In this document: piece by piece, positions 46,632 through 64,000 of the stretch
Position numbering within the stretch: position 1 is the first letter of the stretch
Layout of the letters: every line of letters begins with the position of its first letter
Assembly (NCBI GenBank): GCA_947504725.1
Contig: CANNHN010000012.1
Span: 1 to 64,000 of the forward strand
Direction of reading: 5' to 3'
Length of the DNA stretch: 64,000 bases
From: Bacteroidota bacterium
GTDB taxonomy: Bacteria; Bacteroidota; Bacteroidia; 2-12-FULL-35-15
The notes under the pieces: generated by a model
What the model was told of the DNA's origin: nothing
The model's database searches: none
Seen by the model: the letters and a program-made list of their open reading frames with translations, nothing else
Position numbers and translations under genes: made by a program

Positions 46632-48629
46632 ATGAAATCACTCATTCAAAAAATTGCGTTAAGCACAATTGCTTTTTTTACAATTAATACTACAACAGCA
46701 CAATTAACAGTTGCGGGAGCAACGCCAGCGCAAATGGTCGATACACTTCTTGGAACAGGAGTAACTGCAAGTGGTATTGTTTATACTGGAGCTGCAGCTT
46801 GTAGAGGTACATTTGGTGGTTTATCAAATATTGGTTTTTCTTCTGGCGTACTTTTAACGTGTGGTAATTTGGTAAATGCGATTGGACCTAACAACACGTC
46901 TGGAGCGTCAGTTGGAAATGGATTGCCCGGAGATCCAGATTTGAATATCATTATGGCTCCGACTTTGAGTTTTGATGCTACAATTTTAGAATTCGATTTT
47001 ATTCCTACTTCTGATACTGTAAAGTTTAATTATGTTTTTGCATCAGAAGAATACATGGAATTTGTAAGTACATTTCCTGGTGGAATCAATGATGCTTTTG
47101 GATTTTTTATTAGCGGACCTGGAATCGCTGGCCCTTTTAGTGGTGGTGCAGAAAACATTGCTATCATTCCCGGAACAAGCTTACCAGTTACTATGTTCAA
47201 TTTGAATTTATTTACAAACGCTGCATATTATTTTGATAATGGTGATGGTTTTGGAACAGGTACTGCGCCTGACGGAGCGACTATTGAATACGATGGATTC
47301 ACAGTTCCTTTAACTGCCATTTCACCTGTTCAATGTGGCGAAACGTATCATATTAAACTTGCTATCGGTGATGGTGGTGATGATATTTTAGATTCAGGTG
47401 TGTTTTTAGAAGAAGGTAGTTTTTCCAGTCAAGGTGTTACAATCATTCCTGAAATTAGTTATGGTGGAACAAACGATTCAACTTTATATGAAGGTTGTGG
47501 ATTAGCATGTATCTATTTTGTGAGAACATCTAATTTAGCAAATGCGGATACAATAAATTTAACAATTGGGGGGTCTGCAGTAAATGGAATTGATTACAAT
47601 ACAGGTGTTGTTGGAGTTCCTTTGCCGAATCAATTAATTTTTGCCGCTGGCCAGGATTCCATTTCATATTGTATCAATGCGGTTTCTGATGGTGTATTGG
47701 AAGGGTTAGATACCATTCAACTTTCAATTATTTTAGCTGGAGCTTGTGGTGGAACTACAACATATGCAACCGTTTATTTAAATGAATATACTCCACTAAC
47801 TTTAAGTATGAGCGATACAACGTTCTGTAATTTGGGTGGAACATTTACAATGATTCCTATTGTCACTGGAGGAGTTGAGCCATATACATATTCTTGGAGT
47901 GGAGGATTGCCTTCAACATCTACGAATACAGTTACAGCTTCTACAACAACAACATATACCGTTGTTGTAAACGATGCGTGTAATGGAACTATTGATCCAA
48001 CTCCATCTGTAACAGATTCATCTACTATTACAGTTGCAACATTTGCTCCAATGGTAGTGAATGCTGGACCTGATATGATTGTTTGTCCTGGTGATGTTTT
48101 ACCAATCTTGTCTACGATAACTGGAGGTGGGTCACCATATACTTATAGCTGGTCAGTAATTGCTGGAACCGATCCATTGAGTTCTACAAATACAGCAAAC
48201 ACAAGTGTAGTTGTGACCTCTAATGGTATTTATCAAATCACAATTACTGATGTTTGCGGAAACGTTCAAACCGATCAGATATTAATTGCTGTTGAAACGT
48301 CTTGTGTTTTAAATATTCCAAATGTTATAACTCCAGATGGAACTGGCCCAGCTGTGAATGAATTTTTCTTCGTAGAAAATCTTGAAAAATATCCAGGAAG
48401 TTCTTTAGCAATTTATAATCGTTGGGGAAATAAAGTATTTGAAAGCTCAGACTACCAAAACAATTGGAATGGTTCGAAATCAGTTGATGGAGTTTATTAT
48501 TATGTTTTAACAGTTCCAGTTTCCGGAACTGTTAACGCGAACGCGAAAGAAAGTCCATCCTTTAAATCAACCAAATCAGAAGATAACAAAGTGTTTGCAG
48601 GATATTTTCATATTTCCCGTATGAAATAA
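46632..48629 (+). CDS. Choice-of-anchor L surface protein with T9SS type B-like end (second of three)
   Basis: A 665-residue secreted paralogue of the preceding gene. The choice-of-anchor L domain is highly similar (SGIVYTGAAACRGTFGG, LEFDFIPTSDTVKFNYVFAS, DGGDDILDSGVFLEEGS). A Calx-beta-like segment (IGGSAVNGIDYNTG, VLEGLDTIQLSI) and two Ig-like repeats follow. The C-terminal sorting region (IPNVITPDGTGPAVNEFFF, then SLAIYNRWGNKVFES) is a type B variant with a lysine/serine-rich insert before the last strand. Duplication of the neighbouring gene, with later divergence of the stalk, is the simplest origin. Confidence 0.88.
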   Translation: MKSLIQKIALSTIAFFTINTTTAQLTVAGATPAQMVDTLLGTGVTASGIVYTGAAACRGTFGGLSNIGFSSGVLLTCGNLVNAIGPNNTSGASVGNGLPGDPDLNIIMAPTLSFDATILEFDFIPTSDTVKFNYVFASEEYMEFVSTFPGGINDAFGFFISGPGIAGPFSGGAENIAIIPGTSLPVTMFNLNLFTNAAYYFDNGDGFGTGTAPDGATIEYDGFTVPLTAISPVQCGETYHIKLAIGDGGDDILDSGVFLEEGSFSSQGVTIIPEISYGGTNDSTLYEGCGLACIYFVRTSNLANADTINLTIGGSAVNGIDYNTGVVGVPLPNQLIFAAGQDSISYCINAVSDGVLEGLDTIQLSIILAGACGGTTTYATVYLNEYTPLTLSMSDTTFCNLGGTFTMIPIVTGGVEPYTYSWSGGLPSTSTNTVTASTTTTYTVVVNDACNGTIDPTPSVTDSSTITVATFAPMVVNAGPDMIVCPGDVLPILSTITGGGSPYTYSWSVIAGTDPLSSTNTANTSVVVTSNGIYQITITDVCGNVQTDQILIAVETSCVLNIPNVITPDGTGPAVNEFFFVENLEKYPGSSLAIYNRWGNKVFESSDYQNNWNGSKSVDGVYYYVLTVPVSGTVNANAKESPSFKSTKSEDNKVFAGYFHISRMK

Positions 48630-48663
48630 AAAGAACTAATTTTTATTTAGGTGAGTTTTAAAA

Positions 48664-50835
48664 ATGAAATTAAAACAATTTTTGATTCTATGTTTCTTAA
48701 TGATTTTATCATTAAAAAATTTTGCTACCCATATTGTGGGGGGCGAAATTTATTATGATAATCTAGGTGGAAATAATTATCGAATCACCTTAAAAGTTTA
48801 CCGCGATTGTTTTAATGGAGTTCCTCCGCTTGATAATCCAGGTTGTGTCTTTATTTTTAACAGCGCAGGAACTTTTATCGATAGCATAGAAATGCAGCTT
48901 CCTCCAACTATTATTTTACCAACTACTATTAATAATCCTTGTTTTACACCACCAACAAATATTTGTGTTGAAGAAGGTATATATCAATCGATAATTAATT
49001 TGCCTCCTATTCCAGGGGGGTACAATCTTACTTATCAACGTTGTTGCAGAAATGGAACTATTTTAAATTTGATACTTCCTGGTGATGTTGGTTCAACGTA
49101 CATGGCACATATTCCAGATAATTCAATTGCTCCTGGAAATAGTAGTCCACGATTTACAAATTTCCCTCCGATTTTTTTATGTGCAGGCATTCCTTTGTTT
49201 TTTGATCATTCTGCAACCGATCCAGATGGAGATTCATTGTATTACGAATTGTGTGATCCTTATACAGGTTTAGATCCAACTTGTCCTTCGCTAGGTGCTG
49301 CAGGTGCTGCAGCTGGTTGTCCAGGAATTGGTTCTCCACCACCTTTTGCATTTGTTCCTTGGCAAGCCCCATACAATGCTACTTATCCATTAAGCTCATC
49401 TCCTGCACTAGCTGTAAATTCAGTAACAGGATTAATGACTGGAACTCCAAATATGTTAGGTCAATGGGTAGTAGGCGTTTGTGTAAGTGAGTATCGTAAT
49501 GGTGTTTTGATTGATGTTAATAAAAGAGATTTTCAATTTAATGTTGTTACCTGTCCTGGTTTACCAGTTGCATCTATTCCGTTGCAAACAACTTTTTGTT
49601 TTGGTTACAATGTAAATTTTACTCAAGCAAGTGTGAATGCATTTACATACCATTGGGATTTTGGAGATCCTACTACGACATTGGATACATCAAATGTTAT
49701 TAACCCATCTTGGACGTATGCCGATTCTGGAACGTATCAAGTGATGTTGATTATTAATCCAGGAACCATGTGTGCTGATACGCAAACAAATGTGTTTTAT
49801 ATTTATCCGTTGCTAGATCCTGTTTTTTCTCCTCCACCAGGCGAATGTATTTATGAAAACAGTTTTGATTTTACTGGAGGAGGTGCTTATGTGGGCAATG
49901 GAACTTTTGCGTGGAATTTTGGTTCGAATGCTACACCGTCAACTAGCAATGGTCTTAATCAAACAAATATTATTTACAATTCAGTAGGAACATTTCCAGT
50001 AACGTTTACAATAAGCGAAAATGGTTGTACAGAAACGTATACTGCAAATGTTGAAGTGTTTCCAAAACCAATAGCAGATTACACTTTGGCTTCGCCAATT
50101 GCTTGTGACTTACAACCAGTAAGTTTTGTTAACAACTCTACTATTCTTCCATTAACTTATTCATGGACATTTGGAGATGGAGGAACATCAAACGTTATGA
50201 ATCCAAGTTATTTGTATCCTGGAATAGGAACATACAATACGAGCTTAATAGTATCAACGCCTTTTGGATGCAAAGATACGTTTGCATTGCCATCACCTGT
50301 TTCAGTTTTGACCTCGCCTACTGCAGGTATAAATGCTACGCCAACTGATACATCTATTTTTTATCCGGATGTAACGGTGTTTGATTTGAGTTTCGGTGCA
50401 ACTGATTGTGATATATATTGGGGTGATGGAGCATCAAGTACAAATTGTGATACGATGCATTCGTATGCTGCACCGGGAACATACACGATTATGCAAGTTG
50501 TTACCAATGCAAATGGCTGCAGGGATACTGCATTTATAGAAGTTGTCATTCGTCCCGAATTTTTGTTTTGGATTCCAAACGCATTTACACCGAACGGAAA
50601 CGGATTGAATGATGTATTCAAACCCAAATTAATTGGCGTACACGATTATTCATTTTTAATTTTTGATCGTTGGGGTGAAAAAATATTTGAAACAAACAAT
50701 GAAGAAGTTGGTTGGAATGGTTACTTCAAAGGCAGATTATGCACCAACGATGTCTTTGTGTATAAAATAAATTTCCGTGATGATGTAGATAATTTAGATT
50801 ATCAATATATAGGCAGAGTAACTTTGGTGAGGTAA
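48664..50835 (+). CDS. PKD-domain surface protein with T9SS type B sorting domain (third of three)
   Basis: A 723-residue secreted protein. Signal peptide ends near KNFA, followed by THIVGGEIYYDNLGGNNYRI and VYRDCFNGVPPLDNPG, a domain found at the start of many T9SS type B proteins. Residues 165-290 hold a DPDGDSLYYEL segment and a proline-rich run. Then three PKD-type domains (HWDFGDPTTT, FAWNFGSNATPS, YSWTFGDGGTSN). The type B end has WIPNAFTPNGNGLNDVF, LIFDRWGEKIFETN and VGWNGYFKGR. Cysteines are frequent, as expected outside the cell. It is co-directional with the two preceding genes and probably part of the same operon. Confidence 0.9.
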   Translation: MKLKQFLILCFLMILSLKNFATHIVGGEIYYDNLGGNNYRITLKVYRDCFNGVPPLDNPGCVFIFNSAGTFIDSIEMQLPPTIILPTTINNPCFTPPTNICVEEGIYQSIINLPPIPGGYNLTYQRCCRNGTILNLILPGDVGSTYMAHIPDNSIAPGNSSPRFTNFPPIFLCAGIPLFFDHSATDPDGDSLYYELCDPYTGLDPTCPSLGAAGAAAGCPGIGSPPPFAFVPWQAPYNATYPLSSSPALAVNSVTGLMTGTPNMLGQWVVGVCVSEYRNGVLIDVNKRDFQFNVVTCPGLPVASIPLQTTFCFGYNVNFTQASVNAFTYHWDFGDPTTTLDTSNVINPSWTYADSGTYQVMLIINPGTMCADTQTNVFYIYPLLDPVFSPPPGECIYENSFDFTGGGAYVGNGTFAWNFGSNATPSTSNGLNQTNIIYNSVGTFPVTFTISENGCTETYTANVEVFPKPIADYTLASPIACDLQPVSFVNNSTILPLTYSWTFGDGGTSNVMNPSYLYPGIGTYNTSLIVSTPFGCKDTFALPSPVSVLTSPTAGINATPTDTSIFYPDVTVFDLSFGATDCDIYWGDGASSTNCDTMHSYAAPGTYTIMQVVTNANGCRDTAFIEVVIRPEFLFWIPNAFTPNGNGLNDVFKPKLIGVHDYSFLIFDRWGEKIFETNNEEVGWNGYFKGRLCTNDVFVYKINFRDDVDNLDYQYIGRVTLVR

Positions 50836-52607: not shown

Positions 52608-53585
52608 TCAACTAAATGTCACTTCAAACACACTGCCTTTAGGAGCATTATCTTTTACTACAATTACTCCATTATGTTCTTCTACTAAATACTTTGTTAT
52701 AAATAATCCCAAGCCTGTTCCTTTTGTTTTTCTCACTTCCTCATTTCCTACACGATAGAATTTTTGAAAGATGTTGTTTTTCTCTTCATTGGAAATGCCC
52801 ACTCCTTGATCAGCAACACTTAGGACAATTTTATCATTTAACTTTTTAAGTGAAAGGGTTATTGTTGTATCAGCCTGTGAATATTTTACAGCATTCTCTA
52901 CTAAATTCAGAATAATTGAAGGGAATGTTGTTCTGTCAATGTTCATAAAAATTTCAGATTCAATATTTAATACAATGCGTTGTTTGTAGTTAAACGACTG
53001 AATCGTTTGGTTCATTCCTTCTTTTATGTACTCCGATAAGTTGTATCGTTCTTTGTGCAAAGAAAAGATGCTGTTTTCAATTTTAGAAGCAAATAAAATA
53101 TTCTCAACTAAATTGTTCAATCGTTCTGTATCACTGATGGCATTGGCAATAATTTCTTTTTGTTTTTCTCTGTCCAATTCATGTTTCTGAAGCGTTTGTA
53201 ATTGCAGTTTGGTAGAGGCAATAGGAGATTTTAATTCGTGGGTAACCGACATTAAAAAGTTTTTTTGTTGTTGAGCAAGGGCCGTTTCTTTTTTTAAAGT
53301 TTTTCGGATTTGATATCCTCCGAGTAGTAATAAAAAAATGAAAACAGCACCCTCACTGGAAATCATCACCCAGCGTTTGTGTAGTTTTTCATTCAGTTCG
53401 TTTCCTTTTTGAATGACTTCTTCCAGCGTTTCCCCTTTTAAAAGATTAATCTCCGTTTTTAAACGAATGCTTTCTGTATTTAGTTGAAACATGGAGTAGG
53501 TCCACCACGAAAATTGCAGAAATACATAAACCAACAAGATGTAAAACCAAAACAGTGCTTTTGATTTTTTAGGGGACGAATTCAT
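52608..53585 (-). CDS. Sensor histidine kinase (orphan)
   Basis: A 325-residue membrane kinase. Two membrane helices (about 11-33, FWFYILLVYVFLQFSWWTY, and 74-93, GAVFIFLLLLGG) flank a short periplasmic helix of about 40 residues, too small for a typical sensor domain. No HAMP domain is visible. The H-box is MSVTHELKSPIAS with the phosphoacceptor histidine near 117. The ATPase part has NLVENAVKYS, DQGVGISNEEKNN and KGTGLGLFITKYLVEEH. No response regulator gene adjoins it. The next gene on the strand is gpmI, 201 bases downstream. Confidence 0.92.
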   Translation of the reverse strand: MNSSPKKSKALFWFYILLVYVFLQFSWWTYSMFQLNTESIRLKTEINLLKGETLEEVIQKGNELNEKLHKRWVMISSEGAVFIFLLLLGGYQIRKTLKKETALAQQQKNFLMSVTHELKSPIASTKLQLQTLQKHELDREKQKEIIANAISDTERLNNLVENILFASKIENSIFSLHKERYNLSEYIKEGMNQTIQSFNYKQRIVLNIESEIFMNIDRTTFPSIILNLVENAVKYSQADTTITLSLKKLNDKIVLSVADQGVGISNEEKNNIFQKFYRVGNEEVRKTKGTGLGLFITKYLVEEHNGVIVVKDNAPKGSVFEVTFS

Positions 53586-54040: not shown

Positions 54041-55120
54041 ATGAAAAAAGTTACTTTATTTTTAGGCTTCCTATTTCTTGCTACTTATAATCAGGCTCAA
54101 AATGGTTTAGAGAGCATCATAGTAGAAAAATATTATATCACAGATGCGAATGATGCTACTGCAGATTTAACGGATGGTGTTTTGCCTGTTGGTTCAACAA
54201 CATACAGAATTTATGTTGATATGCTTCCTGGGTATAAATTTCAAGCAGCTTTTGGCGTACCAACACATGAATTAAAAATTGCTACAACTACGCTTTTTTT
54301 TAATAACGAAGATCGAGGTGCAACAACACCTACATACACAAAAACACATGCAAAAGGAAACACTGTAATGTTGGATTCTTGGTTGTCTGTTGGTGCTGCT
54401 TGTGTTGGTAATTTTGGAGTTCTTAAAACTGAAGATGATGGTCTACTTACGGTTGTAAATAATGATGGACTTTTACAAAATACAAATCCTCTAGCGGGTA
54501 TTCCTTTAACGACCGAAGATGGTCTTATGCTTGGTTCACCTCAAGCGGTTACAGCTGTTGGTATAACAACTGAAATAGCAATGTTTGATAATCAAAATGA
54601 TGGAACAAATGGTCCTGTTTTTTCTACATTTAATGGATCTTGGGCTTCACTTAGTGGATCTCAAGGATTAGACGCTGCTTTAAACCATGTTTTAATTGCG
54701 CAAATTACAACGAATGGTATTTTTTCTTTTGAATTGAATATTCAAATTGGAACGCCTTCTGGTGGTGTTGAACAATATGTAGCTTTAAGTCCTACTGGAG
54801 CCGAAATTCAAATACCAAGCCTTATCTATCCCGATTTAACAACAAGCGGAAATGATTTGACACAAGCGAATGCCTTTGTAAATATTTATCCTAATCCTGC
54901 TAAAGATTTATTATGGATAGACATTTCGAATTCAAAAAGCATCAGTAACAATTATTCAATTTATGATGCCAAAGGAAGCTTGTTGGCTCAAAAAAAATTA
55001 GGAGAAATTTCAGGTAGGTTTAACGATAGTATTGATATTTCTGAATATCCACAAGGATTGTATTTTGTTGTGGTAACATTGGATGGTATGGTTACGTCTA
55101 AAAAAATAGTTAAAAATTAA
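54041..55120 (+). CDS. VEKYY-family secreted protein with T9SS type A sorting domain (copy 1)
   Basis: A 359-residue protein. Signal peptide MKKVTLFLGFLFLATYNQAQ; then a domain of about 240 residues shared with the genes at 58242 and 62462: IIVEKYYITDANDATAD, LPVGSTTYRIYVDMLPGYKF, a TTLFFNNEDRG segment, NTVMLDSWLSVGAA, GVLKTEDDG, NPLAGIPLTTEDG, and a final VLIAQITTNGIFSFELNIQI. I do not recognise this domain and call it VEKYY. The end is a classic type A sorting domain (VNIYPNPAKDLLWIDIS, GLYFVVVTLDG). A TonB receptor gene follows after 27 bases. Confidence 0.85.
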   Translation: MKKVTLFLGFLFLATYNQAQNGLESIIVEKYYITDANDATADLTDGVLPVGSTTYRIYVDMLPGYKFQAAFGVPTHELKIATTTLFFNNEDRGATTPTYTKTHAKGNTVMLDSWLSVGAACVGNFGVLKTEDDGLLTVVNNDGLLQNTNPLAGIPLTTEDGLMLGSPQAVTAVGITTEIAMFDNQNDGTNGPVFSTFNGSWASLSGSQGLDAALNHVLIAQITTNGIFSFELNIQIGTPSGGVEQYVALSPTGAEIQIPSLIYPDLTTSGNDLTQANAFVNIYPNPAKDLLWIDISNSKSISNNYSIYDAKGSLLAQKKLGEISGRFNDSIDISEYPQGLYFVVVTLDGMVTSKKIVKN

Positions 55121-55147
55121 TTTCGCTCTCTTTTTTGTAGCATTTAA

Positions 55148-58100
55148 ATGAAAAAAGCAGTTTTAGTATTCTTAGTAAATTTCATTTTATGTTCTTTTTC
55201 CTACTCCCAAGGAACAATTAGAGGAATGGTTACCGATGAAAATGGTGAAACACTTATTGGTGTTACCATTGTTCTTAAGACAGATATGTCGAAGGGAACC
55301 ACGACCGATTTAGATGGAAATTTTTCGTTTAAAATAACAGCAACTACACCGCAGGTGTTAGTCGTTTCGTATATTAGTTTTCAGACAGTAGAGGAATTAG
55401 TAAATCCTTTAAATGAGGAAGTTCTGATAAAAAACTTTGTACTTCCTTCAGCAGCAAAATCTCTAATTGAAGTTGAAGTTGTTTCCAAGCAAATAAAGGC
55501 GAAGGAATACTACATGGAAAACATAAAAAAGAAATCGGCAACGACAATCGATTATGTCTCTTCAGAAACGATGAAAAAAACGGGGGACAATAATGTCACT
55601 GCTGCAATAGCTCGTGTATCTGGGGTTTCAACTAATGGTAGTTTTATTACTGTACGAGGAATAGGAGATCGATATGTAAAAACTACTATTAATGGTGCAC
55701 AAATCCCTACGCTTGATCCCTTTACAAATAATATTAAGTTAGATTTATTTCCAGCAAGTTTGGTAGACAATATTGTTATAACAAAAACTGCAAGTCCTGA
55801 CTTGCCAGGTGACTGGACAGCAGCTTATATTTCTGTGGATACTAAAGATTACCCAGAAGAAATGGCAGTAAATATTGAAACTACAATTGGATACAATAAT
55901 CAAACGAGTTTCAAAAATGTTTTAGCGAATCAAACAAGTACAACAGATTGGTTAGGCTATGATAAAAATTTTCGTGATCGTGATCATAATTCTTTTGTAA
56001 ACGTTAATGTGCAGCCAACCCAATATCAAGAACTTGCAGCTATAGGGTTAGCAGATTTTTATAAAGCAATGGGTGTTACGCAAAGTTGGGCCGAAGGCAC
56101 AAGTGCAGGAGAAACGTATTTCAAATTAGGCTTGGTAGAATTAGGCCTTTTGTCGCCTGCGTTGTTTAATGATCCAATTGCCGTGACTAACGCTAAGAAT
56201 GCGTACTTGAATGGACCGTATAAAGATGATGCTTATCGAATAATAAATGCAAATGCTGCCAGTTCAGGAAAATCTTTTCCCAACAATTGGAACACGTTTT
56301 CAAAAAGAGCTCCTTTAAATTTTTCTCAGAGTTTTAGTGTTGGAAACCAAGGGAAATTGTTTAATCGCACAATTGGATTTATTGCTGGGTTTCGTTATGG
56401 AAGCTCTATACAATATGATCCGAATTCAATTTCTCAAAGAACTATTTTATCTGATTTAGATAGCGATGGAAATCCTTTAACGGATCAACGTATTAATCAG
56501 CAATTCGTAAAATATACAAATGGGTGGAGCGCATTAATTAATGTGGCATACAAATACAGTTTAAATCACAGTATATCGCTTTTGTTTATGCCAAATTTTA
56601 CTGGAATAAATAATATTAGAGATGGTGTAGATGTGAATGAAAACTTTATTTATTATTATACATTCACTAAAAGTCAATTTTATGAACAGCGTAAACAAAT
56701 GGTGTATCAGCTTAAGTCCGAACATTATTTTCCTAAACCCAGATTGAAAGTTGATCTACATTCTTCATATAGTAGAGGGAAAAGTAGTGCTCCAGATTTT
56801 AAAAATTTGGAATATTATGCTGATAGAAATTTAGCATATCAATTTGATAAAACATTGGGCTCGGTAAGGCGCGATTACAGATATTTGTCTGAAAATATTT
56901 TTGATTCTAAGTTGTTCGCTGAATTCCCAATAAACGAAAAATCAGGTTTGGCAAGAAAAATAAAATTTGGCGGAGCCTTTCAAAATATTAATAAGAAGTT
57001 TGATCAATTTGATTATTTTTTAAAACTAAACAATGGTGCATCCTACGAAATTCCTAACAATGATTTAGATCAATATTTTTCGATCGACAAATTTGATATC
57101 CAAACCAACTCCTTAAATGGGAATCATCAAAGTATTGATTTGTTTTACGAACGGTTCGATGGTCCATCAAATCATACAATCGGGCATAGCAATATTGCGG
57201 CTGCTTTTATTTTACTCGACTACGCTCTTTTTCCAGCTTTGCGTGTTTCCGGAGGTGTTCGAGCTGAAAAGACTGAAATATTTACAGATGTTTTTAAGTA
57301 CGATTCTTTGGGTTATAAAAAGAATGATCCAAGAAGAAGGCCTCCGGGAGAGTCATTTGTGGTTAACCCGGGTTCTATTAGTAGAATTAATTATTTACCA
57401 AGTATCAATATTATTTATAAACTAAGAAATAATGAATTAGCTCCTATAAATTTAAGATTGAACTACAGCAAAACGATCGCTCGTCCAAGTATTAGGGAGT
57501 ATTCCGAAACAATTGTAAGAGACTATGAATTAAATGCGGATGTTTTTGGAAATGCAGATTTAAAGATGGTAGAAATAAATAATTATGATTTGCGTTTGGA
57601 GTCATTCTTTAAATCAAGTGAAAGTGTGTCGATAAGTTTTTTTTATAAAGATTTTAAGAATCATATCGAACAAGTAAATTCTAATATTGGGTTTACTTGG
57701 ACAAATGCTGAAAAATCTAGAGTGCTGGGAATTGAGTTAGAAGGGAAAAAGAAGATCACTAAACGGTTAGAATTTAGAGCAAATGTTTCGTTTGTTGATT
57801 CTCGCTCAGAGATTATAGAAAAGCAACTGAGCGTTTCTAATGGAATTAGAACGTGGTATCCAACAGACACTGTAACACGAAAAATGTTTGGTCAAGCTCC
57901 TTTTGTGATAAATGGAATTCTTAGTTATTCACTCGATAGTATAGGATTAGTAACAACGCTTAGTTATAATGTTCAAGGTGCAAGACTTGTGTTGACATCA
58001 ACAGATGGTGCTCCTGATGTGTATGAGATGCCGCGTCATTTGTTAGATTTTAAAGTTTCTAAAAAAATTGGAAAGCATTTTAATGTTAGTCTTACAGTTA

Positions 58101-58219
58101 GAGATATTCTAAATTCTCCAATTAAAAGATCATATAAATACGATGAAGGGTACTTGTTGGATTTTGACAGTTACCGTTATGGCACAAATTTTATTTTAGG
58201 AATTTCATATAAATTATAA
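55148..58219 (+). CDS. TonB-dependent receptor with CarboxypepD_reg-like domain
   Basis: A 1023-residue outer-membrane receptor. Signal peptide ends near CSFSYSQ. Residues about 22-105 are a carboxypeptidase-regulatory-like domain (GTIRGMVTDENGETLIGVTI, TTTDLDGNFSF). The plug has TGDNNVTAAIARVSGVSTN, RGIGDRYVKTTINGAQIPT and KTASPDLPGDWTAAYISVDT. A 22-strand-type barrel follows, with its last strand ending NFILGISYKL. Ligand unknown. No SusD-like partner adjoins it; instead it sits between two VEKYY secreted proteins with 27- and 22-base spacers, so they are very likely one transcript and may share a ligand or assembly role. Confidence 0.93.
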   Translation: MKKAVLVFLVNFILCSFSYSQGTIRGMVTDENGETLIGVTIVLKTDMSKGTTTDLDGNFSFKITATTPQVLVVSYISFQTVEELVNPLNEEVLIKNFVLPSAAKSLIEVEVVSKQIKAKEYYMENIKKKSATTIDYVSSETMKKTGDNNVTAAIARVSGVSTNGSFITVRGIGDRYVKTTINGAQIPTLDPFTNNIKLDLFPASLVDNIVITKTASPDLPGDWTAAYISVDTKDYPEEMAVNIETTIGYNNQTSFKNVLANQTSTTDWLGYDKNFRDRDHNSFVNVNVQPTQYQELAAIGLADFYKAMGVTQSWAEGTSAGETYFKLGLVELGLLSPALFNDPIAVTNAKNAYLNGPYKDDAYRIINANAASSGKSFPNNWNTFSKRAPLNFSQSFSVGNQGKLFNRTIGFIAGFRYGSSIQYDPNSISQRTILSDLDSDGNPLTDQRINQQFVKYTNGWSALINVAYKYSLNHSISLLFMPNFTGINNIRDGVDVNENFIYYYTFTKSQFYEQRKQMVYQLKSEHYFPKPRLKVDLHSSYSRGKSSAPDFKNLEYYADRNLAYQFDKTLGSVRRDYRYLSENIFDSKLFAEFPINEKSGLARKIKFGGAFQNINKKFDQFDYFLKLNNGASYEIPNNDLDQYFSIDKFDIQTNSLNGNHQSIDLFYERFDGPSNHTIGHSNIAAAFILLDYALFPALRVSGGVRAEKTEIFTDVFKYDSLGYKKNDPRRRPPGESFVVNPGSISRINYLPSINIIYKLRNNELAPINLRLNYSKTIARPSIREYSETIVRDYELNADVFGNADLKMVEINNYDLRLESFFKSSESVSISFFYKDFKNHIEQVNSNIGFTWTNAEKSRVLGIELEGKKKITKRLEFRANVSFVDSRSEIIEKQLSVSNGIRTWYPTDTVTRKMFGQAPFVINGILSYSLDSIGLVTTLSYNVQGARLVLTSTDGAPDVYEMPRHLLDFKVSKKIGKHFNVSLTVRDILNSPIKRSYKYDEGYLLDFDSYRYGTNFILGISYKL

Positions 58220-58241
58220 AAAAGTTAAATTGTTTTTACCA

Positions 58242-59576
58242 ATGAAATTAACTTATTTGACAGTAATATTGTTTTTCTTTATTTCTTTTTCGCTACATGC
58301 GCAAATTGAAAAGGTGATTGTGGAAAAATACTACATTTCAGATTCTATAGATGAAACAGATACAACCGGTAGCGTGCTTCCTGCTGGTTCAAAAACATAC
58401 AGAATATATATAGATTTAATGCCGGGTTCGAAAATTAAAAAAATTTATGGTGATGTCAATCATGCTTTAAAAATTTCAAGTACTGCTACTTTTTTTAATA
58501 ATTCGGTTGACGGACAAAGTTTTGCAAAAGATTTTAGCAAAAACAGATATTTAGAAAATACTGTTGCGTTGGATACTTGGCTTACTTTAGGGCAGACAAC
58601 AAAAGTTGCAGCAAAAACACATTTTGGAATTTTAAAAGATCAGGATGCGGATGGCTCTTTTATTGGAGGCGCAAACAATGATGGAGGAAGTGCGGTCATT
58701 TCTACAGGATTAATGATTAATACTGATCCGCTTGCCGGAATTCCGTTAACTTCTGCAGATGGTATGGATACAATGATGGTCGTTCCAACATCCTGGGCAA
58801 ATTATGGAATTGTTGATTTGATTTCAGGAATTGACTCTACTATTTTTGGTTCAGTTGTTATTGACTCGCAATTTGTTAGTTACGATGCAGGGCTTCAATG
58901 TTCAGGCGCTGCTGGTGTAATTCCAGATAGTAATCAAGTATTGGTTGCTCAACTTACAACAACAGGAGATATTTCTTTTGAATTAAATTTGGAAGTAGAA
59001 CAATTTGATGGAGTCAATACTACTATTGTAAAATATGTAGCGAATGATAGTGTACTCTTGTCGGATGAATTAATTAGTCCGTTTTTAACTTACCCTCCTT
59101 TATGCGGTTGTTTAGACCCTAATTATTTAGAATATAGCAGCAGTTATTCCTGTGCTAATAATAGTTTGTGCAATACACTTATAGTCTTTGGTTGTATGGA
59201 TACCTTAGCTTGCAATTATAATTCTTCTGCAAATTTTAATTTGCAAACAGTGTGCTGTTATATAGGATATTGTAATGATTTAGATATTACCGTTGTTTGT
59301 CCTTCTTTGCCGGTTGAAGAATCTTATAATGATATCACTTTTGAGATTTATCCCAATCCAACGCAAAGTATACTTGCGTTGGATGTTTCTTCTAAAATCA
59401 AAAGCGATACCAAGTATGCTATTTATGATTTGTATGGTAGACAGATAAAAACAGGGGAGGTGCCAACGGATGCTCTATATCTTATAGATGTAACGGATTT
59501 AGCTAATGGATTATATCTTATTCGTGTATCGGTTGACGATATTTTTTCAGGAAAATCTTTTATAAAAACGAATTAA
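58242..59576 (+). CDS. VEKYY-family secreted protein with cysteine-rich insert and T9SS type A domain (copy 2)
   Basis: A 444-residue protein, signal MKLTYLTVILFFFISFSLHAQ (the ATG at 58242 is preferred to the TTG at 58230). The VEKYY domain is present (VIVEKYYISDSIDETD, LPAGSKTYRIYIDLMPG, NNDGGSAVISTG, DPLAGIPLTSADGMD, VLVAQLTTTGDISFELNLEV). About residues 285-350 form a cysteine-rich region with the GCMDTLACNYNSSA type repeat seen in other Bacteroidota surface proteins. A type A sorting domain ends it (FEIYPNPTQSILALDVS, GLYLIRVSVDD). Part of the same transcript as the TonB receptor before it. Confidence 0.85.
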   Translation: MKLTYLTVILFFFISFSLHAQIEKVIVEKYYISDSIDETDTTGSVLPAGSKTYRIYIDLMPGSKIKKIYGDVNHALKISSTATFFNNSVDGQSFAKDFSKNRYLENTVALDTWLTLGQTTKVAAKTHFGILKDQDADGSFIGGANNDGGSAVISTGLMINTDPLAGIPLTSADGMDTMMVVPTSWANYGIVDLISGIDSTIFGSVVIDSQFVSYDAGLQCSGAAGVIPDSNQVLVAQLTTTGDISFELNLEVEQFDGVNTTIVKYVANDSVLLSDELISPFLTYPPLCGCLDPNYLEYSSSYSCANNSLCNTLIVFGCMDTLACNYNSSANFNLQTVCCYIGYCNDLDITVVCPSLPVEESYNDITFEIYPNPTQSILALDVSSKIKSDTKYAIYDLYGRQIKTGEVPTDALYLIDVTDLANGLYLIRVSVDDIFSGKSFIKTN

Positions 59577-59588
59577 TGCTATTTGATC

Positions 59589-60356
59589 ATGCAAACAAAA
59601 ATAAAATATGTATTGAATACAATGATAGATAAGTTGATGAAATTGCCACATTCATTAATGGTATTTATTTTTATTCTAACTTTTTTGACTTGTTGTAAGA
59701 AAAAAGAGGAAGCCGTTCCCAGTAAGGAAACAGGCACGCTAACAGATGTCGATAACAATACTTACAAAACAATAAAAATTGGCAATCAATGGTGGATGGC
59801 GGAAAATTTAAAGGTGACAAAATTTAGAAATGGTGTATCAATCGCACAAAATCAAAATGCCGGGGATTGGCAAAGTGTTGTTTCATCATCATATTGTATT
59901 TACGATAATAACACTGCCGCTCCAGGATTGTTATATAATTTTTTTGTAGTAGTGGATACAAATATTGTTGCTCCAATTGGTTGGCATGTCCCTTCTGATG
60001 AAGAGTGGAAAATTCTTGAAAGAAACATAGGGATGAGCTCTACAGATGCAGATAAATTAAGTTGGAGAGGAAATACTGAAGGGGAAAAATTAAAAATTGA
60101 AGCGCCACAAGGTTGGACAACTTATGATGATGTTTGGTCAACAAATGAAAGTGGATTTTCTGCACTTGCGGGAAGTTGCAGACTTTTTAACGGAACGTGG
60201 GGTAGTCCAGGTTTGTTTGCAACTGGTTTTTGGTGGTCCTCTACTTCAGCTGGTAATGATGCGTGGTATCGATATTTAGATTATATAAAAACAAATGTGT
60301 TCAGATTTTATGGGTCTAAAAAATATGGATTTAGTATTCGCTGCGTGAAAGACTAA
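59589..60356 (+). CDS. FISUMP-domain lipoprotein
   Basis: A 255-residue protein whose hydrophobic N-terminus leads to a lipobox-like LTFLTCCKKKEE, so it is probably lipid-anchored. The rest is the Fibrobacter succinogenes major paralogous (FISUMP) domain: VDNNTYKTIKIGNQWWMAENL, GLLYNFFVV, APIGWHVPSDEEWKILE, ALAGSCRLFNGTW, GFWWSSTSAGNDAWYR and FSIRCVKD. The domain is common on Bacteroidota and Fibrobacter cell surfaces; its function is not defined. Start ATG at 59589; later in-frame ATGs are possible. It follows VEKYY copy 2 by 12 bases. Confidence 0.88.
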   Translation: MQTKIKYVLNTMIDKLMKLPHSLMVFIFILTFLTCCKKKEEAVPSKETGTLTDVDNNTYKTIKIGNQWWMAENLKVTKFRNGVSIAQNQNAGDWQSVVSSSYCIYDNNTAAPGLLYNFFVVVDTNIVAPIGWHVPSDEEWKILERNIGMSSTDADKLSWRGNTEGEKLKIEAPQGWTTYDDVWSTNESGFSALAGSCRLFNGTWGSPGLFATGFWWSSTSAGNDAWYRYLDYIKTNVFRFYGSKKYGFSIRCVKD

Positions 60357-60805
60357 TTTAGTTGAATTTCTTTTCTTCTTCTGTTTAATATTCTTGAAAT
60401 AATTTCTTCTTTCAATTCTTTTCATCGTTTATCTCTGTGAGATGGGATATTCTATTTTGTATTTTCTTCAAAAAAATTCTTAGTAAATATATTTTCATAG
60501 TTTGTTAACATTTCAAATATTCTTTAGTTGCTAATATAATTAGGTGTTTCAAGTATTGTGCGTTTCTTTTATACCCGTTTGTGAATTTTTATTTAACGTA
60601 TAGGTAAATATTTATTTTGAAAATTTGATGTTCGTGTTAAATGTATTTCTCATTTATAGATTATCAATAACCTAAAAGTTAAATACATATAATAATTTGA
60701 TAAGTATAGATTTCTCAATAGCTAAATTAAACAAACAATATTTGCAGCGTGAATTTAATCAATCATTTCTCAATTAACTTAAAACAAAAAAACAAAAAAC
60801 AAAAA
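60357..60805. other. AT-rich intergenic region
   Basis: 449 bases with no supported gene. It separates the TonB/VEKYY/FISUMP transcript from the beta-helix/VEKYY pair and should contain a promoter. The last 35 bases are an A-rich leader (runs of CAAAAAA) typical of ribosome entry in this phylum. No strong terminator or repeat is visible. Confidence 0.5.
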
Positions 60806-62395
60806 ATGAAAACAAAAAAAACATTTTCAAAATTAGTTGCTACAGCGGCAGTTGCTGTTGCTTCTATTGCACCAAGTTTCGCTCAGTCGAACTTAGGTGA
60901 ATCTTGTGGTTGCCCTGCCGTGGCATCAAGACCAACCGTTTTGATGTCAACATTAACAAATGTTGCAACAGGTGAATTACTTGCTTCAAGTACTATCTTA
61001 ACTTGTGATAAAACTTGGATCTTGGATGATAAAGTTTATGTAGGCGATGGAAAATCGTTAACAATTAATCCCGGAACAGTTATTAAAGGAAGATTTGTAG
61101 CTTCTGGTGTAAATGCAAATGCACTAATTGTTGCTAAAGGCGGAAAAGTTTTCGCTAATGGAACAGAATCATGTCAAATTGTTTTTACGGCTGAAGCAGA
61201 TGCAATGGATGGAACTTATGGAATTCTTAACAAAGGACAATGGGGTGGTGTTGTAATGTTAGGAAAAGCAACTAATAACTTAACTACTGCTAATACGCTT
61301 TGTACTGGTGTAAATGGTGTTGGTTTCATTGAAGGATATCTTAGTAGTGAGCCATTAAACCAATTTGGTATGCCAGTTGGATCAAATGATGATAATGATA
61401 ATTCTGGTGTAATGACGTATGTTTCAATTCGTCACGCTGGAGCTATTGTTGGTGTAGCAAACGAATTAAATGGTCTTACTTTAGGTTCTGTTGGTAGAGG
61501 TACTACATTACACCACATAGAAATCGTTTCTAACTTAGATGATGGAATCGAATTTTTTGGTGGAACAGTTGATTTAAAATATGCATCTGTATTGTTTAAT
61601 GATGATGATGGATTTGATTGGGATTTAGGATGGTCAGGAAGAGGTCAATTCTGGGCTGTTGTTAAAACAGATCAAGGTACAGCAGCAGGTGGAGATAATG
61701 GTTTTGAAAGCGATGGAGATGATCAAAAAATTAATGCAGCTCTTCAATCAAACCCACAAGTTTACAATGCTACTTTTATTGGATCTAACAACATCAACGG
61801 AAATCTTACTCAAAAGGGTGTTGGAATTATGGCGAAAGAACAAACTTTAGGAACAATCCGTAGCTCTGTTTTGGCTAACTATAAAATTGGTGCAGATTTT
61901 AAAAATGATGGAACTCGTCCAGGTAACGATGCATACGACAACTGGATTGCAGGTACATTAAAAGTTGAGTGTAATACATTTATTGGTAACACAACTATGT
62001 TACAAGTAAATGGAGTAACTGCTGTTGTTGGTGGTTCAGACGAAACTAAGTTTTTTACTGATGGAAATATATCTTCAGCATCAGTAGCTGGATTTGATTT
62101 TCTTCATACAATGAACACCTCAACTAATGTTGTTTCGGACACTTATGATGCAAGTCCAAATCCCGCTTTAGCATCTTCTTGTACTCCACCGTCTGATGGA
62201 TTCTTTACATCAACAAATTACCGTGGTGCTTTTGAAGCAGGTAAAAAATCTTGGTTATCTAACTGGTCTATCAATGCGTTGTATGATACTGAAAATGGAT
62301 TAGTTCCTTGTCCTACAGATATCAATGGTGATGGAAGCACTAACAACATTGACTTCTTACAATTATTAGGTCAATTCAACCAATCTTGCGATTAA
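60806..62395 (+). CDS. Secreted beta-helix-like protein with C-terminal dockerin-like motif
   Basis: A 529-residue exported protein; signal MKTKKTFSKLVATAAVAVAS to PSFAQ. The frame extends upstream, but the ATG at 60806 follows the A-rich leader and opens the signal peptide. After a cysteine-bearing GESCGCPAVAS, the body resembles a right-handed parallel beta-helix: KVYVGDGKSLTINPGTVIKG, CQIVFTAEADAMDG, GQWGGVVMLGKATNN, YVSIRHAGAIVG, HHIEIVSNLDDGIEFFGG. The C-terminus CPTDINGDGSTNNIDFLQLL has a single calcium-loop dockerin-like motif, and no T9SS domain follows. The sorting route is therefore unclear. It is followed after 66 bases by VEKYY copy 3. Confidence 0.82.
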   Translation: MKTKKTFSKLVATAAVAVASIAPSFAQSNLGESCGCPAVASRPTVLMSTLTNVATGELLASSTILTCDKTWILDDKVYVGDGKSLTINPGTVIKGRFVASGVNANALIVAKGGKVFANGTESCQIVFTAEADAMDGTYGILNKGQWGGVVMLGKATNNLTTANTLCTGVNGVGFIEGYLSSEPLNQFGMPVGSNDDNDNSGVMTYVSIRHAGAIVGVANELNGLTLGSVGRGTTLHHIEIVSNLDDGIEFFGGTVDLKYASVLFNDDDGFDWDLGWSGRGQFWAVVKTDQGTAAGGDNGFESDGDDQKINAALQSNPQVYNATFIGSNNINGNLTQKGVGIMAKEQTLGTIRSSVLANYKIGADFKNDGTRPGNDAYDNWIAGTLKVECNTFIGNTTMLQVNGVTAVVGGSDETKFFTDGNISSASVAGFDFLHTMNTSTNVVSDTYDASPNPALASSCTPPSDGFFTSTNYRGAFEAGKKSWLSNWSINALYDTENGLVPCPTDINGDGSTNNIDFLQLLGQFNQSCD

Positions 62396-62461
62396 TTTTA
62401 AAATATCTACTCTCAATTAACTAAAAAATATAAATATACAAATCACAAAAAAAATTCAAAA

Positions 62462-64000
62462 ATGAAAACTAAAAAAATCTTGTTAGGCTTTGGTCTTGCC
62501 CTACTTGGTACTTTCGCCCACGCACAAGGGTTAGAAAATGTCATCGTAGAAAAGTACTACGTCTCCAACGCAGCTGATGCTGCTGGAACGATTGGAACTC
62601 TACCAGTGGGTTCTGTGACGTATCGAATTTATGCTGACATGTTGCCAGGCTATAAATTTCAAGCACTTTATGGAGTTGCTACTCACACGCTACAAATTAC
62701 TTCTTCAACTACTTTTTTCAATAACGAAGACAGAGGAGCTACTACATCAAATGCAATTCCTTCTGCACAGTTGAAAAACAATTCGGTTGCATTAGACTCT
62801 TGGTTTTCTACAGGAGCTGCTGCACCAGGACAAATGGGTGTTCTTAAAACAGAAGACAATGGTCTTGCTAATCTTTTGCCAATTATCTCTAATCCAATGC
62901 TTAAAAACGTTGATCCAACTGCTGGTATTGCAGTAGGTGTTCAAGATGGTATTATCACTGGAACTCCAGAAGCGGTTTCATTTGTTGGACTTACAACAGA
63001 ACTTGATGTATTTGATGCATTAAGTCAAGTAGGTGGTTCATTTGTTACAACAAATGGTTCTATTGCTTCATTGAGTGGATCTGTTGGTCCTACTGGTACT
63101 AACAGAGTATTAATTGGACAATTTACTACTGATGGTGTTTTTGGATTTGAATTAAATATTCAAATTGGTACTCCAACTTTTGGAGTGCAAAACTACGTTG
63201 CTAGAAATCCTGTTGGTGCAGAACTTTCTATACCAAGTTTAATTTTGGCTCCAAATTTACCTCCAACTGTTTCTATTACATCTCCTATTACAGGTGTAAA
63301 CGTAATCACTGGATCTTCTGTTACTTTTAATGCTTCTGCATCTGATTCTGACGGAACAGTTTCCCAAGTTGAATTTTTTGATGGTGTTACTTCTATCGGT
63401 GTAGATAACACTTCTCCTTATTCAATTAGCTGGGTAAGTACAACTGGTACTCATAATATTACAGCTAAAGCAACTGATAATATTGGTGCTATCGGAACAT
63501 CTGCAATTGTAGTTGTAAATGCTGCATTAAATCAAGCGCCTATAGTTTCTGTTTCTGCTCCTCCAACTGCTTCAGTTGGTAGCTCAGTAAACATCACTTC
63601 TGTGGCATCTGATATAGATGGAACCGTTTCTCAAGTTGAATTTTTTGTTGACGGAGTTTCAATTGGAATAGATAATACTAGTCCATACAGTATGAACTGG
63701 ACAGCTGTTGTTGGAGTTCATTCTATCAGAGCTACAGCAACGGATAACTTATTAGCAACTACAAACTCTTCTACTATTTCAATTTCTGTTGCTGCTAACA
63801 TTCCTCCAACTGCAAGTATTACTTCTCCATTGAGCAGTGCTACATTTACTGCACCTCAGGTTGTGACAATTGATGCTTCTGCAACTGACCCTGATGGAAC
63901 GGTTACTCAAGTTGAATTTTTTGTGAATGCGGTTTCAATTGGAACTGATTTAACTTCACCTTATTCAATCAATTGGACAAGTGTTATTGGTACTGCAAGT
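62462..64000 (+). CDS. VEKYY-family secreted protein with Ig-like repeats (copy 3, 5' part)
   Basis: An uninterrupted frame runs from the ATG at 62462 to the window end (513 codons visible, no stop). Signal MKTKKILLGFGLALLGTFAHAQ. The VEKYY domain closely follows copy 1: VIVEKYYVSNAADAAGT, LPVGSVTYRIYADMLPGYKF, TTFFNNEDRG, NNSVALDSWFSTGAA, GVLKTEDNG, then VLIGQFTTDGVFGFELNIQI. From about residue 263 come at least three Ig-like repeats of about 90 residues (PPTVSITSP, SASDSDGTVSQVEFFDG, NTSPYSISW, TAKATDNIGA), of the Big_7 type. A T9SS domain may lie beyond the window. Confidence 0.88.
   Translation, partial: MKTKKILLGFGLALLGTFAHAQGLENVIVEKYYVSNAADAAGTIGTLPVGSVTYRIYADMLPGYKFQALYGVATHTLQITSSTTFFNNEDRGATTSNAIPSAQLKNNSVALDSWFSTGAAAPGQMGVLKTEDNGLANLLPIISNPMLKNVDPTAGIAVGVQDGIITGTPEAVSFVGLTTELDVFDALSQVGGSFVTTNGSIASLSGSVGPTGTNRVLIGQFTTDGVFGFELNIQIGTPTFGVQNYVARNPVGAELSIPSLILAPNLPPTVSITSPITGVNVITGSSVTFNASASDSDGTVSQVEFFDGVTSIGVDNTSPYSISWVSTTGTHNITAKATDNIGAIGTSAIVVVNAALNQAPIVSVSAPPTASVGSSVNITSVASDIDGTVSQVEFFVDGVSIGIDNTSPYSMNWTAVVGVHSIRATATDNLLATTNSSTISISVAANIPPTASITSPLSSATFTAPQVVTIDASATDPDGTVTQVEFFVNAVSIGTDLTSPYSINWTSVIGTAS

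Follow-up and report, generated by a model that had tools for sequence, protein, structure and literature searches.

A gene cluster in which a TonB-dependent receptor and a beta-helix protein are interleaved with exported proteins sharing a hitherto unclassified domain, here termed VEKYY, probably constitutes a system for scavenging under phosphate starvation to which type IX-secreted proteins have been added. By analogy with described loci we class it as a variant of the ElpS/PUS kind of system that carries a new domain family, absent from the libraries searched and tied to the receptor/beta-helix pair. The described relatives of this pair are major phosphate-starvation exoproteins without known mechanism, and FI makes up 18.7% of the F. 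johnsoniae exoproteome (PMC8115612).

Organization of the cluster

The cluster is located at the end of the window, i.e. the whole stretch of 64,000 nucleotides that was analysed (positions 1 to 64,000 of contig CANNHN010000012.1), and continues beyond it on the contig (Table 1). All six genes lie on the + strand where the initial annotation had placed them, and its description of three VEKYY paralogues (V1, V2 and V3) interleaved with a receptor (TBDR), a FISUMP lipoprotein and a beta-helix protein (BH) agrees with the gene order and with domain identities of 34-55%. The short spacers of 12-27 bases said to join the first four genes measure 27 nt (V1-TBDR), 22 nt (TBDR-V2, ATG start) and 12 nt (V2-FISUMP, first ATG). 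BH starts 2.6 kb downstream of TBDR on the same strand, with V2 and FISUMP in between. In several relatives the downstream PKD/T9SS and PorP/SprF genes are part of the same arrangement.

Table 1. Genes of the cluster and downstream genes, numbered along the contig.
Feature	Position	Strand	Description
V1	54041..55120	+	Signal peptide, VEKYY domain, T9SS type A sorting tail (Por_Secre_tail 2e-14)
TBDR (TonB-dependent receptor)	55148..58219	+	CarbopepD_reg_2, Plug and barrel; PF13715 5.5e-15, PF07715 8e-12
V2	58242..59576	+	VEKYY domain, cysteine-rich segment, T9SS type A sorting tail (Por_Secre_tail 9e-11)
FISUMP (Fib_succ_major)	59589..60356	+	Predicted lipoprotein; PF09603 9e-40
BH	60806..62395	+	Predicted beta-helix protein; half-dockerin motif at end, no T9SS tail
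V3	62462..64000, on to 65860	+	VEKYY, three Big_7, cohesin-like region, dockerin, T9SS type A tail
PKD protein	66117-67367		Sorting tail; downstream of window
Nine-PKD protein	67611-70577		CHU_C tail; downstream of window
PorP/SprF protein	70592-71614		Downstream of window
PstS-like protein	71990-72898		Downstream of window

Two more type B (CHU_C) surface proteins, one with PKD domains, are encoded in tandem at 46632-50835 of the window and are set apart from the cluster by two opposite-strand genes.

The VEKYY domain and its carriers

Judged by their sequences, the VEKYY domains of V1, V2 and V3 are true paralogues: V1 and V3 share 55% identity (1e-85), V1 and V2 40% (3e-45), and V2 and V3 34% (4e-35). 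Searches of Pfam, NCBIfam and PHROG returned no family and the PDB no sequence match; an alignment of 93 sequences was also run as a profile against the PDB, and member by member against Pfam. The prospect that the domain would turn out to be a known family with an assigned role, by which the initial annotation was to be refuted, did not materialize in these libraries. Structure prediction of the domain alone, proposed at the same time, was carried out from the alignment and yielded a model (pLDDT 94.7, pTM 0.93) that confidently predicts an Ig/cohesin-like beta-sandwich with a long insertion. Foldseek gave nothing below E 0.13 and no clear PDB match for this model. The VIA-align hits lay at Z 4 to 5 (best Z 5.2) and included Als adhesins, cohesins and complement domains; they may reflect only the common beta-sandwich arrangement. 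In the alignment, residues E11, R38, D94, G143, Q203, T205, G208 and N215 of the modelled domain are invariant.

The VEKYY heads had been assigned a plain, a cysteine-rich and an Ig-repeat tail. That the tails differ was borne out, but the "plain" end of V1 is a T9SS type A sorting domain (PF18962), and V2 ends in one as well. The Ig repeats of V3 were recovered as Big_7 domains (2e-42); V3, which runs past the window, additionally carries a dockerin (Dockerin_1 1.5e-6, over the cut-off), a cohesin-like module and a sorting tail (Por_Secre_tail 1.4e-16). By profile, its C-terminal half gave a weak match to cohesin (5.3e-4) and one to dockerin (0.012). Sorting tails were found on V1, V2 and V3 and on neither BH nor FISUMP. 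With a C-terminal PF18962 domain, the three VEKYY proteins are predicted cargo of type IX secretion. The initial annotation had missed this export route, as well as the genes located past the window and the connection with phosphate starvation.

Conservation and distribution

A search for VEKYY, using one genome per species, revealed 43 loci, nearly all from metagenome-assembled genomes and, where they come from one genus, not independent. The usual order is a short VEKYY gene, a VEKYY gene with sorting tail, TBDR, a cysteine-rich VEKYY gene, FISUMP, BH and a large VEKYY gene with Big_7; the window copy is without the short first gene. An outer-membrane barrel is sometimes encoded between FISUMP and BH, and several loci additionally have PKD/CHU_C and PorP/SprF genes after the large VEKYY gene. 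The second ground for refutation named by the initial annotation, a receptor never adjacent to VEKYY in other genomes, was not borne out either: VEKYY lies directly upstream of the receptor in 29/30 testable cases and downstream in 26/28; VEKYY followed BH in 31/31 cases. Across the 43 loci the VEKYY heads bear different tails. The proposal of a system for surface assembly or uptake whose secreted parts can be exchanged, which fits the T9SS tails, the conserved order and the varied tails, is partly supported.

VEKYY is rare and patchy in its distribution. Carriers comprise 8 of the 25 genomes of the genus, source genome included, one further genome among 16 other relatives, and 3 of 395 Bacteroidota genomes (source genome included, artefact removed). 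A weak match in G426 was discarded, as it fell in a frame antisense to a different gene.

Individual loci show further elaborations. L146 and L147 (G085:C43) bring seven VEKYY domains into one cluster, where a single protein of 2358 residues has more than one of them. At L026:570-7556, FISUMP and BH are separated by the gene for an fn3 protein of 2329 residues that bears a T9SS tail and has a relative in L028. At L033:7979-9811 a protein O-mannosyltransferase-like gene (PMT_2 with TPR) lies within the VEKYY cluster, which suggests glycosylation of the exported proteins.

We considered whether the locus instead encodes a surface structure for support or adhesion, such as an adhesin, a sheath or a biofilm scaffold, in which VEKYY, Big_7, PKD and cohesin/dockerin modules would form a fibre and the receptor would be a sensor or minor partner. 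The Big_7, PKD, CHU_C and PorP/SprF parts are in keeping with such an assembly, as are the weak resemblance of VEKYY to adhesin and cohesin sandwiches, the multiplication of VEKYY genes, e.g. in G085, and the O-mannosyltransferase-like gene of L033. We nevertheless regard it as unlikely, given that a receptor is flanked by VEKYY genes at almost all loci and that the core pair and the regulators described below point to phosphate.

The receptor/beta-helix pair

In a tree in which several outside rows stand on long branches, the VEKYY-linked TBDRs form one clade that is joined to beta-helix-linked TBDRs and lies apart from seven other TBDRs of the genome. The TBDR-BH core is widespread: BH relatives occur in 105/148 Bacteroidota genomes, and a profile search for TBDRs of the family yielded 65, of which 57 have a BH gene on the same strand at a distance of ≤2.5 kb. 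The lipoprotein-signal cysteine of the FISUMP protein does not vary among 20 homologues.

BH is predicted to be a beta-helix protein on the basis of its AF2 model (pLDDT 81.7), for which the Foldseek list was made up of beta-helix proteins, none of them matching at E ≤ 0.001. The dockerin-like end noted by the initial annotation was recovered as a half-dockerin motif of one repeat only (Dockerin_1 E 0.045, below the cut-off); the motif is kept in homologues, with a profile match to dockerin at E 0.007. The dockerin and cohesin-like module of V3 together with this motif recall cellulosomes. The cluster differs from these by the lack of cellulases and of a scaffoldin array, by the single-repeat dockerin of BH and by the weak cohesin match, and membership was not accepted.

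SusCD loci resemble the cluster in that their TonB receptor bears a CarbopepD_reg_2 extension and is accompanied by partner proteins at the surface. The cluster is unlike them in that its partners are T9SS-exported, no SusD family was found among the genes scanned in the cluster and its neighbours, as the initial annotation had also stated, and no CAZyme family among the cluster genes scanned; for the latter two reasons a SusCD reading was dropped. A carbohydrate uptake locus dispensing with SusD, with BH as polysaccharide lyase or binding protein and the receptor importing oligosaccharides, would accommodate the resemblance of the BH model to lyases and tailspikes and the weak TIGR01782 match of the receptor (4.4e-52, below the model's own cut-off). 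We judge it quite improbable in view of the missing CAZyme and SusD families, the absence of a Foldseek match of BH at the above threshold, and the Pho linkage.

Linkage to phosphate starvation

The source genome encodes a second TBDR-BH pair (L138), flanked on one side by a PhoR-like kinase and a PhoB-like regulator, and on the other by a calcineurin-like phosphoesterase (PF12850) and a glycosyltransferase (plcP-agt-like). PlcP is listed as PF12850 (PMC8115612), and together with a glycosyltransferase it brings about lipid remodelling when phosphorus is deficient (PMC4796936). By analogy, the pair and its surroundings match the phosphate-induced PUSIV locus of Flavobacterium johnsoniae, which comprises PhoR, PhoB, a TBDT and the beta-helix lipoprotein FII, the latter two being induced under Pi depletion (PMC8115612). 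Where genomes of the genus lack VEKYY, the pair likewise adjoins a PhoB, 78-92% identical to that of the source genome, and in G085 the closest non-VEKYY pair is situated directly behind a plcP-like gene.

The same genes accompany VEKYY clusters themselves. A PhoB-like gene (43-81% identity) lies within about 4 kb of the clusters in L022, L027, G004, G005, G011, G020 and G024, and plcP-agt lies within 5 kb in L018, L039 and G014; ten genomes thus have PhoB-like regulators or plcP-agt beside a VEKYY cluster. Because the genus members checked encode only two or three regulators as similar to PhoB, this proximity is unlikely to be due to chance, bearing in mind that loci of one genus are not independent. 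At the window copy, no PhoB or plcP gene occurs on the stretch read, only the PstS-like gene downstream, and the cluster contains no phosphatase or phosphodiesterase. A histidine kinase gene at 52608-53585 was rejected as a cluster regulator: it is on the opposite strand, its product is 31% identical to the PhoR-like kinase, and it is absent from the 43 other loci. At L021:7494-8165 a PhoB-like regulator with a seemingly degenerate receiver domain is encoded beside the cluster, with a strong PHO-like box upstream of its own gene.

Uptake of a metal, siderophore or vitamin, with the VEKYY proteins as surface capture proteins, would be in line with the general role of TonB receptors and with the cysteine-rich segment of V2. 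The Pho linkage and the lack of iron or vitamin genes in the neighbourhoods that were examined make it very improbable.

A candidate PHO box

The hexamer TTAACA repeated at an 11-bp period is enriched upstream of ten non-VEKYY TBDRs (z 8.8), and at 22 bp too. The 11-bp period is that of E. coli PhoB boxes. Newly retrieved upstream regions carry the repeat two or three times, some 90-115 bases ahead of the start. Scored with a matrix built from non-VEKYY sites, VEKYY operon starts exceeded unrelated genes (p 0.002), and many VEKYY operons have a PHO-like box of this period in front of them. Of 181 genes scored, those ranking highest include first genes of VEKYY clusters, PhoB-like genes and one plcP-like gene. 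The box core had first been spotted by eye in VEKYY upstreams; in a held-out subset, period 11 gave z 3.3, but z values of 2.3-2.6 were reached at periods 14 and 22 as well, and unrelated genes reached z 2.7 at period 11. We propose the repeat as a candidate Bacteroidota PHO box. The window operon lacks such a box, the region upstream of V1 scoring -3.3; it was perhaps lost with the first gene. Pho control may nonetheless extend to the window copy.

A model for the cluster

Under the preferred interpretation as an elaborated phosphate-starvation system, the core would be the TonB-dependent receptor and an extracellular beta-helix protein of the ElpS/FII kind, to which VEKYY proteins, exported and surface-anchored by the type IX secretion system, would have been added in the source lineage. 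The VEKYY heads and BH would bind or process a phosphorus-containing ligand, such as an organophosphate or phosphorylated glycan, and hand it to the receptor, taking the place that SusD has in Sus systems. V3 may hold BH through cohesin/dockerin contacts, and the PKD proteins with their PorP/SprF partner may anchor the assembly. More speculatively, the VEKYY proteins, the dockerin-tagged BH and the PKD/PorP pair would constitute one T9SS-secreted, cohesin/dockerin-held phosphorus-harvesting complex feeding a single TonB receptor, with VEKYY as a new class of phosphorus-ligand binding domain; in this full form we consider the proposal less likely than not.

The system had been put forward as a candidate undescribed one. 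This is only partly right: the VEKYY domain matches no family in the libraries searched, but the TBDR/beta-helix core resembles described phosphate-starvation systems (PMC8115612, PMC2996285). A literature search on FISUMP with T9SS and TBDR, and on TBDR with beta-helix and type IX, found nothing. PUSIV (Fjoh_0543-0546) and PUSIII (Fjoh_3851-3859) share with the cluster a PF07715/PF13715 receptor beside a beta-helix (IPR011050) or related lipoprotein, and PUSIII also has T9SS-domain proteins within the locus (PMC8115612). No VEKYY, FISUMP, Big_7 or dockerin parts are reported for either, and PUSIV has phoBR beside it, unlike the window copy. Of the hallmarks of the ElpS/FII type, the window copy has the PF13715 and PF07715 receptor and a nearby beta-helix partner on the same strand, whereas Pho linkage or a PHO box is found in its relatives.

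Homologues beyond Bacteroidota

Plasmids of Indioceanicola and Sphingomonas encode BH homologues, after which come a TonB receptor and genes of the T2SS. These alphaproteobacterial homologues match the arrangement reported for Caulobacter crescentus, in which ElpS (cc0170), the TonB receptor cc0171 and the T2SS are found together (PMC2996285), gene order being the sole basis for a putative kinship of BH with ElpS or with FI, FII and FIII. Produced during phosphate starvation, extracellular ElpS increases phosphatase activity outside the cells when overexpressed, apparently without being a phosphatase itself (PMC2996285). It thus resembles the cluster in pairing an extracellular protein of phosphate starvation with a TonB receptor, and differs in its T2SS-dependent release, as opposed to the T9SS tails in the window, and in having no VEKYY parts. 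In Alteromonas the order is phoB, phoR, PstS-like, oxygenase, BH and TBDR, followed by ExbB, ExbD and TonB genes. One theme across phyla is suggested, with the beta-helix partner using the T2SS in Proteobacteria and the T9SS in Bacteroidota. The Alteromonas genes (L189) form one run on plasmid pBGP9 of Alteromonas macleodii.
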